Below are positions 20,207 to 23,136 of a DNA stretch of 52,070 nt, one piece after another. The notes below the pieces were generated by a model that had not been told where the DNA came from, made no database searches, and saw only the letters and a list, made by a program, of their open reading frames with translations. A program made the position numbers and the translations under genes. Source of the DNA: Syntrophales bacterium (GTDB lineage Bacteria; Desulfobacterota; Syntrophia; Syntrophales; UBA2210). Position 1 is the first letter of the stretch. Every line of letters begins with the position of its first letter. The stretch is taken from positions 1-52,070 of the forward strand of contig JAQULO010000010.1 in NCBI GenBank assembly GCA_028718565.1. Reading direction: 5' to 3'.

Positions 20207-20383
20207 TTCCGAAGGCACCCCGGCAAGCATTACGGTGTCATCGTCGGGGTCGTAGTCATCGTAGTTCTCACCATTTCTCTCAAAGATTTCTCGCGTTAAT
20301 CTGTCGCGCTCATCTTGAGTTTTGGCTTTTGACAGTGCCTCTCTATATTTTAGATAATCTTCCCACCATTCGGCATCTGTCAT
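20204..20383 (-). CDS. Small acidic protein of unknown function (59 aa)
   Basis: The protein starts MTDAEWWEDYLKYREAL and ends in a very acidic tail with NYDDYDPDDDTVMLAG. It is predicted helical in the first 40 residues. The ATG shares one base with the TAA of the upstream acetyltransferase fragment (TAATG), which indicates translational coupling, and a terminator overlaps its stop. I do not recognise a family. Its tight pairing with an acetyltransferase-like partner could suggest an antitoxin-like or accessory role, but nothing in the sequence proves that. Confidence 0.6.
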   Translation of the reverse strand: MTDAEWWEDYLKYREALSKAKTQDERDRLTREIFERNGENYDDYDPDDDTVMLAGVPSE

Positions 20384-20649
20384 TAGTACATCTCCATAAA
20401 TTTCTTTGCATTTTCTGGCGTTAGAATAAGCTCCATGCTGAGTCCACCTTTAAGGTCAACCATCCCAACTTTATCCCAATAAAAATTTGATGTTTTCAAG
20501 TCTCTCACCGATACCAACGTCAACCGCCCCCCGTACCCGGCATCCATCGAGGCTTGCACCGCTTCTTTCATCATGGCCGTGCCCCCGTTGGGGACATTGC
20601 TTCCAAGCGTTTGAACCTTCAGGGCATCCCTGAGAGGGTCTTTTGTCCA
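20383..20649 (-). pseudogene. C-terminal part of a GNAT-type acetyltransferase
   Basis: The only ATG start gives 63 residues (from 20574), but homology-like sequence continues upstream in the same frame to about 20649: LGSNVPNGGTAMMKEAVQAS, then GYGGRLTLVSV and NFYWDKVGM. That order resembles GNAT motif A (acetyl-CoA loop) followed by the C-terminal FYxKxGM strand. The usual N-terminal half is absent because the iscU-like gene ends immediately upstream (TAG at 20652-20650). No start codon or ribosome site precedes the conserved part. It is therefore a truncated gene, or a short protein starting at 20574 with function unknown. Confidence 0.55.
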
Positions 20650-21285
20650 CTATTCCGTAAACACGACCTCCACTTTTTTCACATCCCAGAGGGGTCCTAT
20701 CTTCTCCATGATCTCATCTTTGATGTTGGAGGCAAACTGGTGGTCGGCGGGGATGTCCACCGTGATATGAACGGTCCCCTTATCTACCTTGATATCCTTT
20801 ACCAGTTCCGTCCGGACAAGATCCAGACCGGAGAGGGGGTTCATCACCTTCTTGAGACGCTTACGAACGATTTCCACGGTGGTGTTTTTCTGGTCCTTGA
20901 CCAGACCGTGTCGCTCCTCGTAGTTCTGTATTGCCGAGCGCAGCCCCTCCACGGCGAGGACCGAGCAGTGGGCCTTGATCGGCGGGAGACCGCCCAGGGC
21001 ATCTGACGCCTCCTTCCAACTGATTTTTTTGGCCTCCTCGATGGTTTTCCCCTTGGCGAGTTCGGTGATAATGGAGCCGGTTGCGATGTTGGAGGCGCAA
21101 CCGTAGGATTCGAACTTGATGTCCGTGATCCGCTTTGTGTCGGGATCGACCTTGATGTGAACCCCCACCATGTCACCGCAGGCGGGACTGCCTTCCATGG
21201 CGTTCCCGTCGGGGTTTTCGATTTTGCCTACGTTACGGGGATGACGAAAATGTTCCAGCACCTTATCACCATAGGGGAATGTCAT
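20650..21285 (-). CDS. IscU-type scaffold fused to a DUF59/MIP18 domain
   Basis: 211 residues. Residues 1-130 are an IscU/NifU N-terminal scaffold. The three cluster-binding Cys are C36 in SPACGD, C63 in SYGCASNIATGS and C107 in LPPIKAHCSVLA, and the conserved Asp is D38. Residues ~136-211 form a DUF59-like domain (VRKRLKKVMNPLSGLDLVRT, then KDIKVDKGTVHITVDIP and a VKKVEVVF end), related to MIP18, SufT and the N-terminus of Mrp, all linked to Fe-S maturation. The CP motif of some DUF59 proteins is absent. IscU holds a nascent [2Fe-2S] cluster; the added domain could aid delivery (inference). The gene follows the IscS-like gene by 12 bases, so the pair is one unit. Confidence 0.88.
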   Translation of the reverse strand: MTFPYGDKVLEHFRHPRNVGKIENPDGNAMEGSPACGDMVGVHIKVDPDTKRITDIKFESYGCASNIATGSIITELAKGKTIEEAKKISWKEASDALGGLPPIKAHCSVLAVEGLRSAIQNYEERHGLVKDQKNTTVEIVRKRLKKVMNPLSGLDLVRTELVKDIKVDKGTVHITVDIPADHQFASNIKDEIMEKIGPLWDVKKVEVVFTE

Positions 21286-21297
21286 TTCTGGACCTCC

Positions 21298-22464
21298 TTA
21301 TTTTTTGGCCAGCGGGCTGATTTCCCTCAACTGGCTTACAACTTCGGTGATCGTGTCCACCACCGTATCCACATCCTCCGTGGTATTGTAACGGCCGAAG
21401 GTGAAGCGAATGGATCCATGCGCCCGCTCATGATCCCCTCCTATCCCGAGGATCACGTGGCTCGCCTCCAAGGATCGGCTGAAACAGGCAGAACCCGTGC
21501 TGACGGCGAACCCGCGCATGTCGAGGTGAAGAGTGATCGATTCCCCCTCCACGAAGTGGAAGGTGATGTTCGCATTCTGCGGGACCCTTTTGGAACGGTG
21601 TCCGTTCAGGGTCGTGTCCGGTACCGTGGCCGATACTCGATCGATGAGGTGGTCCCGCATCACCTTGATCCGTTCGTTCTCTTCGGGGGTTACCAGTTCG
21701 ACAGCCCTGGCGAAGCCGACAGCCCCCGGAATATTCTCCAGGCCGGCCCTGAGGTTGAACTCCTGGAATCCCCCGTCCATCCACTTGGAGATCGGCGTGC
21801 CCTTGCGGATGTAAAGCCCTCCGACCCCCTTCGGGCCGTGAATCGTGTGGGGAGATATGGTGATCAGGTCCACACTTACCTCTCGAGAGTCCAGGGGCAT
21901 CCGCGTGAAGGTGTGCGTGGCATCGGTGTGAAACAGGATGCCTCTCTCTTCGCAAATGCGACCAATCGTCTCGATGTCTTGGGCCGTTCCGATCTCCTGG
22001 TTTGCGTGCTGGATGGAAACCAGGATCGTTTCATCGGTCATAGAGCCTCTTAGTCTGTCAAGATCTACAAGACCTTCATGATCCACATCCAGGTAGGTAA
22101 CAGAGAAGCCTTGCTTCTCGAGCGCCCTGGCGCTGTGCAGGACGGGAAAATCCTCGATTTTTGAAATGATAAGGTGCCTTCCCTTCTTCTCACCGAGCGC
22201 CAGGGCCACCCCCTTGAGGGCCAGGTTGCTCGATTCGGTGCTCCCGGAGGTGAAGATAAATTCCTCGCCGGTGGCGCCGATATGATGTGCGATCTTCTCC
22301 CGAGCCTTCTCCAACGCCTCCCGGGCCTCGATCCCGAGGGAGTAGCCGAACTCCGACGTGGCGACGGGGTAGGTCTCGAAGAAGTAGGGCGTCATGGACT
22401 CAAGGACCCGTTCGTCCATCCTGGTAGCCGCAGCGTTGTCGAGATACACGGTCTTCTCAATCAT
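21298..22464 (-). CDS. IscS/NifS homologue lacking the PLP lysine
   Basis: 388 residues, aligned along its full length with IscS/NifS cysteine desulfurases. The persulfide Cys is C327 in STGSACFSRS and the PLP-ring Asp is D181. Three active-site positions differ from the family: the Schiff-base Lys (E. coli K206) is T207 in ISPHTIHGPKGVGG, the PLP-stacking His (H104) is D105 in KIEDFPVL, and Gln183 is H184. RSGT of the phosphate site reads RAGL. The codon for T207 is ACG, where Lys would be AAG. The protein cannot form the internal aldimine and should have no desulfurase activity, but may still donate a Cys ligand or carry persulfide. Archaeoglobus fulgidus IscS also lacks this Lys and has been reported inactive as a desulfurase. 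The DsrE-like and TusA genes lie directly upstream. Confidence 0.92.
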   Translation of the reverse strand: MIEKTVYLDNAAATRMDERVLESMTPYFFETYPVATSEFGYSLGIEAREALEKAREKIAHHIGATGEEFIFTSGSTESSNLALKGVALALGEKKGRHLIISKIEDFPVLHSARALEKQGFSVTYLDVDHEGLVDLDRLRGSMTDETILVSIQHANQEIGTAQDIETIGRICEERGILFHTDATHTFTRMPLDSREVSVDLITISPHTIHGPKGVGGLYIRKGTPISKWMDGGFQEFNLRAGLENIPGAVGFARAVELVTPEENERIKVMRDHLIDRVSATVPDTTLNGHRSKRVPQNANITFHFVEGESITLHLDMRGFAVSTGSACFSRSLEASHVILGIGGDHERAHGSIRFTFGRYNTTEDVDTVVDTITEVVSQLREISPLAKK

Positions 22465-22476
22465 GACAGTCTCTCC

Positions 22477-22896
22477 TTATATGAATAAGGTTATGCTCGA
22501 TTCCCGCGCCTCCTGTATGTACGTCCCCACGGCCCCGTATTCATCGATCAGGTCCTGTCGGAGGTCCTCCTGCCTGATCCCCATGATCTGCATCGTCATC
22601 TCGCAGGCGATGATCTTTCCCCCCAGTTCCTTGAAATCCTGGAGGAGCCGTTCCAGGGAGGCGACGTTCGCCGCCTTCATCCGCCGACGTACCATCCACT
22701 TTCCGAGACCCATTAGGTGCACTTTCGAGAGGGAGCCCGCCTCCAGCTTTCCCTTTATGAGGCGTTCAAGACCCCAGAAGGTGAAGTAGAGCGAGGCCTC
22801 CATCCCCATCGATAACGCGCCGGTGGATATGATAAGGGCACTGTACAGCTTGTCCATGTCCCCGCTGTGAACGACGATGGTCGCTTTATCGGTCAT
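22477..22896 (-). CDS. DsrE-like sulfur relay protein
   Basis: 139 residues of the DsrE/DsrF-like (DsrE2-type) family. The first strand TIVVHSGDMDKLYSALIIS, the FTFWGLERL segment, the basic MVRRRMKAANVASLERLL and the single conserved Cys98 in KIIACEMTMQIMGI are typical. Proteins of this family accept persulfide sulfur from TusA-like proteins or rhodaneses on that Cys in sulfur oxidation and sulfur transfer. No obvious membrane segment is present. It lies between the tusA-type gene and the IscS homologue, with short gaps, in one minus-strand unit. The exact donor and acceptor are unknown. Confidence 0.87.
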   Translation of the reverse strand: MTDKATIVVHSGDMDKLYSALIISTGALSMGMEASLYFTFWGLERLIKGKLEAGSLSKVHLMGLGKWMVRRRMKAANVASLERLLQDFKELGGKIIACEMTMQIMGIRQEDLRQDLIDEYGAVGTYIQEARESSITLFI

Positions 22897-22914
22897 GATC
22901 GCACTACCTTTCCG

Positions 22915-23136
22915 TCAGACGTCTACCCTGATCTTCCACACGTCCCCCTCTTCCCGTATGTCCACCAGGTTCAGGCCCAGCGCCCTTAGGGCCATCGGTA
23001 TCTCTTTTTTTGAAGCGGGGTGCGTCCCCACGATCTCCACGGTATCCCCCGGCGAGGCCTTTCGAAGTGCCTTGCGGGTTTCCACCAGGGGCACCGGACA
23101 GGTCTCTCCCCGCACATCCACCTTTATGTCAGCCAT
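22915..23136 (-). CDS. TusA-family sulfur carrier protein
   Basis: 73 residues starting at the ATG at 23136 with AAGGAGG upstream; the frame is open 34 codons earlier, but that part is not TusA-like. The signature is RGETCPVPLVETRKAL with C13 in the CPxP motif, followed by PGDTVEIVGTHPASKKEIP and the terminal strand DVWKIRVDV. TusA proteins carry sulfur as a Cys persulfide from a desulfurase or rhodanese to acceptors. Here it is the first gene of the tusA-dsrE-iscS-iscU/DUF59 unit. A rhodanese or classic desulfurase is not encoded nearby. Confidence 0.9.
   Translation of the reverse strand: MADIKVDVRGETCPVPLVETRKALRKASPGDTVEIVGTHPASKKEIPMALRALGLNLVDIREEGDVWKIRVDV

Follow-up and report, generated by a model that had tools for sequence, protein, structure and literature searches.

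A four-gene module with a lysine-less IscS homologue as a candidate iron-sulfur assembly system of anaerobic bacteria and archaea

What does a cysteine desulfurase homologue do when it lacks the lysine that would bind its cofactor, pyridoxal 5'-phosphate (PLP), and is encoded next to two sulfur carriers and a scaffold for iron-sulfur (Fe-S) clusters? The question is raised by a stretch of 52,070 nucleotides (the window) from a Syntrophales bacterium (GenBank assembly GCA_028718565.1, contig JAQULO010000010.1), whose minus strand carries four genes at positions 20650-23136: one for TusA, one for a DsrE2-like protein, one for a homologue of IscS and one for a fusion of IscU with a DUF59 domain. 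An earlier note, made from the sequence alone, had placed the four genes on one strand with gaps of 12-20 bases; the gaps measure 18, 12 and 12 bases and each protein is backed by a Pfam match. The CPxP motif of TusA, Cys98 of DsrE and the missing lysine of IscS, whose position is taken by Thr207, were likewise borne out. The set is an operon common to many oxygen-avoiding bacteria and archaea, and it probably builds Fe-S clusters from sulfur other than cysteine.

Recurrence of the four genes across phyla

A DNA pattern for lysine-less IscS, allowing T, D, A or N at the lysine codon, was run on 84,980 species genomes and returned 107 loci, which fall into two classes. T-type genes share the motif S-x-H-T-I-H-G-P-K-G and have IscU-DUF59 as partner. 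They are found in archaea (Methanosarcina, Methanomassiliicoccales and other Thermoplasmatota) and in bacteria (Chloroflexota; Bacillota, namely Acetobacterium, Dethiosulfatibacter and Acidaminobacter; Actinomycetota; Nitrospirota; and deltaproteobacterial metagenome-assembled genomes). The named carriers, Methanosarcina, Methanomassiliicoccales, Acetobacterium, Dethiosulfatibacter and Anaerolineae, belong to known anaerobe groups. D-type genes carry the motif SSNDIYGPKG, as in Archaeoglobus fulgidus, and extend over Asgard archaea, Bathyarchaeota, WOR-3, Aminicenantes, Syntrophaceae and others. Their clade has a parallel TusA-DsrE-IscS-IscU operon, in which the IscU often ends in a different C-terminal domain. 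In D-type IscU proteins of ~255-265 amino acids (L041:5629-6426 and alignment A1) this domain matches the NAD(P)H-binding domain of thioredoxin reductases (PDB 3f8d, 9e-10), and the fusion is conserved across phyla; we know of no earlier instance of an IscU joined to a reductase-like domain.

Neighbours were counted for those genes whose flanks were long enough on both sides. TusA and DsrE together adjoin 16 of 17 T-type and 22 of 37 D-type genes, and TusA alone adjoins nine further D-type genes. TusA or DsrE is adjacent to 48/55 lysine-less genes and to 0/36 lysine-type genes, a complete split, although the Fisher p value of ~1e-18 overstates independence because the loci are related by descent.

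The selection bias of a pattern built on the missing lysine is answered by a protein search with IscU-DUF59, which is blind to that residue, in four further groups. Matches were obtained in 12 of 67 genomes of the Acetobacterium order, 6 of 251 of Chloroflexota, 29 of 246 of the Methanosarcina phylum and 7 of 194 of Thermoplasmatota. Long flanks were fetched for 51 IscU-DUF59 regions: an IscS lies directly upstream in 49 of them, with Thr at the lysine position in 46, Leu in two, Ser in one and Lys in none, and all four genes are present in 40. In the Methanosarcina phylum (L202-L229) the T-type motif reads HTIHGPRG, and the DNA pattern misses these genes because Arg replaces the usual GPKG lysine. 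Chance adjacency of the four genes is ruled out, because the same set recurs across several bacterial and archaeal phyla. The neighbourhood check and lysine count proposed in the earlier note find a cluster conserved far beyond close relatives; of the two outcomes that would have spoken against the note, a cluster conserved in no related genome and a lysine-containing IscS beside it in all relatives, neither occurred. Around the T-type loci no conserved neighbours beyond the four genes were found, and hscA, hscB, fdx and iscA of the canonical ISC operon are not among the neighbours.

Closer to the host, a survey of 40 related genomes yielded an orthologue at 79-90% identity in five more genomes of the same family, in every case with Thr and with TusA, DsrE and IscU-DUF59 partners; no TusA or DsrE was found within 1.5 kb of the lysine-containing IscS genes examined in related genomes. 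A phylum-wide search of 297 genomes at 1e-45 with the window IscU-DUF59 as query matched only the window itself, so that few lineages of the host phylum seem to have the set.

The cofactor pocket and the conserved partners

The PLP-lysine motif S-[AG]-H-K-x-[YH]-G-P-K-G reads SPHTIHGPKG in the window protein. Residue roles are given in the numbering of Escherichia coli IscS, in which we take Lys206 to form the Schiff base, His104 to stack on the cofactor ring, Gln183 to contact O3' and Thr243' to bind the phosphate. Residues were counted in 82 T-type sequences, a few of which may be one gene reached twice: the Lys206 position is Thr in 79/82, that of Thr243' is mostly Leu, Val, Met or Ile, and those of His104 and Gln183 are uniformly altered (Table 1). 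The Asp180 position and the persulfide cysteine are unaltered. With the Lys206, His104, Gln183 and Thr243' positions replaced, T-type IscS appears to have lost its means of holding PLP and to have gained a new conserved pocket, the sulfur-handling loop being kept. D-type proteins show consistent changes only at Lys, His205 and Gln183. The window IscS has the loop cysteine of type I cysteine desulfurases and neither their PLP lysine nor the rest of their PLP pocket, and it falls below the NCBIfam equivalog cut-offs for both NifS (445.1 versus 530.75 bits) and IscS (379.8 versus 643.2). A pseudogene or decaying desulfurase is ruled out by the tight conservation of the remaining sequence, with a median identity of 67% among 40 thinned loci.

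The reactive residues of the partners are nearly constant. The CPxP motif of TusA is retained in 28/29 T-type and 56/56 D/Q-type partners, and TusA Cys15 in 28/29 T-type loci; DsrE Cys98 is present in 28/28 T-type and 40/40 D/Q-type proteins. The window DsrE scores 63.5 bits against NCBIfam DsrE2, whose cut-off is 210; it passes Pfam DrsE_2, and its Cys98 is invariant. Among T-type IscU proteins the cluster ligands are Cys36 in 34/36 and Asp38, Cys63 and Cys107 each in 36/36. The earlier note had described this protein as a scaffold with a built-in maturation domain. The scaffold part is upheld by the ligands; the maturation domain is doubtful, because T-type DUF59 domains lack the hyper-reactive cysteine that is strictly conserved in SufT proteins (PMC4982691). 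A conserved D-x-P-x-x-H-Q-F-A segment occupies the region of that cysteine, and the tie of DUF59 to Fe-S assembly is shared with the SufT/MIP18 proteins.

A tree of 82 IscS sequences, calculated with the lysine segment left out, places T-type and D-type each in one group (SH-aLRT 100 and 99); a single change from Lys to another residue suffices. All lysine-less forms group together with support 89, the alternative of T-type with lysine-type not being rejected (p-AU 0.11), and a single origin of the lysine loss is compatible with the tree. Archaeal and bacterial sequences are intermixed within the T group, a pattern that points to transfer of the module as a unit.

Routes of sulfur to the cluster

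Given this conservation and the absence of Lys from all 49 IscS proteins, Fe-S assembly from non-cysteine sulfur, as the earlier note proposed, appears to fit best, and there is a fair likelihood that the four genes encode a PLP-free machine for sulfur relay and Fe-S assembly. TusA and DsrE would carry sulfane sulfur as persulfide, or handle sulfide-derived sulfur, and pass it to the IscS-like protein. The latter would bind no PLP covalently and would not desulfurate cysteine; as a dimer it may offer IscU a platform, take up persulfide on Cys327 and briefly ligate the cluster, probably in a complex with IscU. IscU would assemble the cluster on Cys36/Asp38/Cys63/Cys107, and the cysteine-free DUF59 tail would probably dock or guide target proteins. 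More tentatively, the module could be a widespread, previously unnamed Fe-S machine of anaerobes, fed by TusA/DsrE persulfide or by sulfide, in which a desulfurase was remade into a PLP-free platform with a pocket of Asp105, His184, Thr207 and Lys227.

Loading of the IscS-like protein by TusA and DsrE is proposed because of three precedents. A. fulgidus IscS2 is reported to have no desulfurase activity and to supply a cysteine ligand to a [2Fe-2S] cluster on IscU (PMC7585200). E. coli without IscS takes sulfur from H2S anaerobically and builds clusters on IscU, which is required (PMC13015791). A docking site for TusA has been mapped on IscS (PMC11302051). In the E. coli relay sulfur passes from cysteine via IscS to TusA, whereas the reverse direction is proposed for the window module. 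The A. fulgidus IscS2-IscU complex (PDB 4eb5/4eb7) is the closest structural parallel, 4eb5 being the best PDB match of both the window IscS and the window IscU. Like the T-type proteins, IscS2 has no PLP lysine, keeps the loop cysteine and has an IscU partner; it differs in having Asp for Lys and in belonging to the D clade, sister to the T clade, whereas T-type proteins have Thr, form a separate clade, show further pocket changes and have the DUF59 tail on IscU. MIS (MisS-MisU) is a minimal IscS-IscU pair of anaerobes (PMC12442378); in that description MisS counts among the type I cysteine desulfurases, and TusA and DsrE are not given as MIS parts.

The earlier note knew of no described system with exactly this set. 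None was found in the open-access literature for TusA, DsrE, lysine-less IscS and IscU-DUF59 as one system; the lysine-less IscS-IscU pair, however, was already known from A. fulgidus IscS2 and from IscS1 of Methanosarcina acetivorans (PMC7585200). Genomes of the Methanosarcina phylum bear the T-type set, and isc1 of M. acetivorans (MA0808 IscS1 and MA0807 IscU1) is almost certainly the same system as the window module. The accessible part of PMC7585200 assigns no function to isc1 and neither names its neighbours nor ties them to sulfur carriers; isc2 was the locus characterized, and deletion of iscS2U2 gave a slight, cysteine-linked phenotype only. Deletion of both SufBC copies of M. acetivorans produced no phenotype, and an unknown assembly system was raised as a possibility (PMC10500019). 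The four-gene operon is a concrete and genetically accessible candidate in Methanosarcina for the formation of Fe-S clusters from sulfide. If the proposal is true, bacteria and archaea alike would reverse the usual sulfur relay and use a former PLP enzyme as its scaffold.

Several points weigh against a PLP-free Fe-S machine. No biochemical data on T-type proteins were found in the literature, and the known systems with TusA and DsrE use them to supply other acceptors. Most carriers also have a lysine-type IscS, which leaves no obvious need for the module in bulk Fe-S assembly. The invariant Lys227 could in principle act as a surrogate PLP lysine. The pairwise distances of any two parts are correlated among T-type loci (r 0.55-0.77, shuffles <=0.18), which speaks for the machine but may also stem from shared species history. 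With two of the four genes encoding general sulfur carriers, the module might instead buffer or deliver sulfane sulfur, TusA/DsrE persulfide passing via the IscS-like platform to other acceptors, for example thiolated tRNA or thio-cofactors, and IscU-DUF59 being a sulfur acceptor. Apo-target genes are not conserved around the module. Two Methanosarcina loci were examined; in both, TusA is 2 kb off, and one of the loci is near genes that read as ThiI-like and SepCysS-like. Delivery of this kind is nevertheless unlikely, as the adjacent gene nearly always encodes an IscU that has the full set of cluster ligands and a fused Fe-S assembly domain.

The same presence of a lysine-type IscS in the host and in most carriers would agree with a role of the IscS-like protein as a regulatory decoy, by competition for IscU or by tuning of the cell's canonical ISC. 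This is very improbable for a module that lies away from the canonical genes and has an IscU fusion of its own, together with sulfur carriers whose reactive cysteines are invariant. Continued desulfurase activity, by means of Lys227 or of an unusual cofactor in the remodelled Asp105-His184-Thr207 pocket, could draw on the T-type-specific constancy of Lys227, Asp105 and His184 and on the retention of Asp181, which contacts the PLP pyridine, and of Arg358. It is very improbable, since the ring-stacking His, the O3'-contacting Gln and the phosphate-binding Thr243' have gone as well, and A. fulgidus IscS2, with Asp for the lysine, is without desulfurase activity (PMC7585200). The nearby GPKG lysine (Lys212) is ruled out as a surrogate, being Arg in 29/49 sequences collected without regard to lysine.

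The locus, its host and related loci

Table 1. Features of the four-gene module in the window
Feature	Position	Strand	Evidence or remark
TusA-like sulfur carrier, ~74 aa, start MADIKV	22915..23136	(-)	Pfam TusA 7.5e-21
TusA CPxP Cys codon	23098-23100	(-)	
DsrE/DsrE2-like sulfur carrier, 139 aa	22477..22896	(-)	Pfam DrsE_2 1.6e-32; nearest solved chains 2qs7, 3pnx
DsrE Cys98 codon	22603-22605	(-)	
IscS/NifS homologue without PLP lysine, 388 aa	21298..22464	(-)	Aminotran_5 1.9e-66; 4eb5 at 3.7e-102
IscS Asp105	22150..22152	(-)	position of PLP-stacking His104; Asp in 82/82 T-type
IscS His184	21913..21915	(-)	position of Gln183; His in 82/82 T-type
IscS Thr207 codon ACG	21844..21846	(-)	position of E. 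coli Lys206
IscS Lys227	21784..21786	(-)	T-type-specific, 82/82; usually Pro in lysine-type and D-type IscS
IscS Cys327, mobile-loop persulfide cysteine	21484..21486	(-)	kept; in all T-, D- and K-type sequences
IscU-DUF59, whole gene	20650-21285	(-)	
IscU/NifU_N scaffold domain	20878..21285	(-)	ligands Cys36, Asp38, Cys63, Cys107; NifU_N 2.9e-42; 4eb5 IscU
DUF59 (FeS_assembly_P) domain fused to IscU, cysteine-free	20650..20877	(-)	FeS_assembly_P 2.5e-13; DxPxxHQFA conserved

On the 3' side of IscU-DUF59, at 20383-20574, a frame of 63 amino acids resembles a C-terminal piece of an acetyltransferase and has no Pfam match.

At 2.53 Mb and 98.4% completeness, the host genome contains the normal iscS that the earlier note had suggested looking for: a lysine-type iscS-iscU locus lies on contig 5 behind an Rrf2-type regulator, and a third NifU_N gene and SufB are also encoded. 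With this canonical pair and SufB at hand, the four-gene module is an extra system in the host and not a replacement. What looks like the loss of one base near L003:1510-1530 divides the host's canonical iscS (G000 contig 5, L003:1256-2418) into two frames; as the copy from the same genus in L028 is intact, this may be an assembly error. Contig 39 encodes, at L001:863-2673, a second class-V aminotransferase that has its lysine (FTGHKSLFGPQG) and, immediately downstream of it, a YedF-like TusA-domain protein; the two are possibly a selenium-related desulfurase pair.

Other lysine-less arrangements occur among the relatives. A genome of the same family as the window (G005, L042:4787-5953) has a lone Asp-type IscS after transport genes of the MCE/Mla type, without IscU, TusA or DsrE. 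Another, of the window's order (G027, L040:5862-10473), encodes a Gln-type IscS (SGSQFYGPKG) with IscU, a zinc-ribbon-like small protein, DsrE, TusA and a metallo-beta-lactamase-fold protein, in the order IscS-IscU-DsrE-TusA, unlike that of the window. Genes for hydroxylamine-reductase-like (Hcp), hemerythrin-like and flavodiiron-like proteins lie near this module, and such a setting points to a connection with nitrosative or oxidative stress in the lineage concerned.
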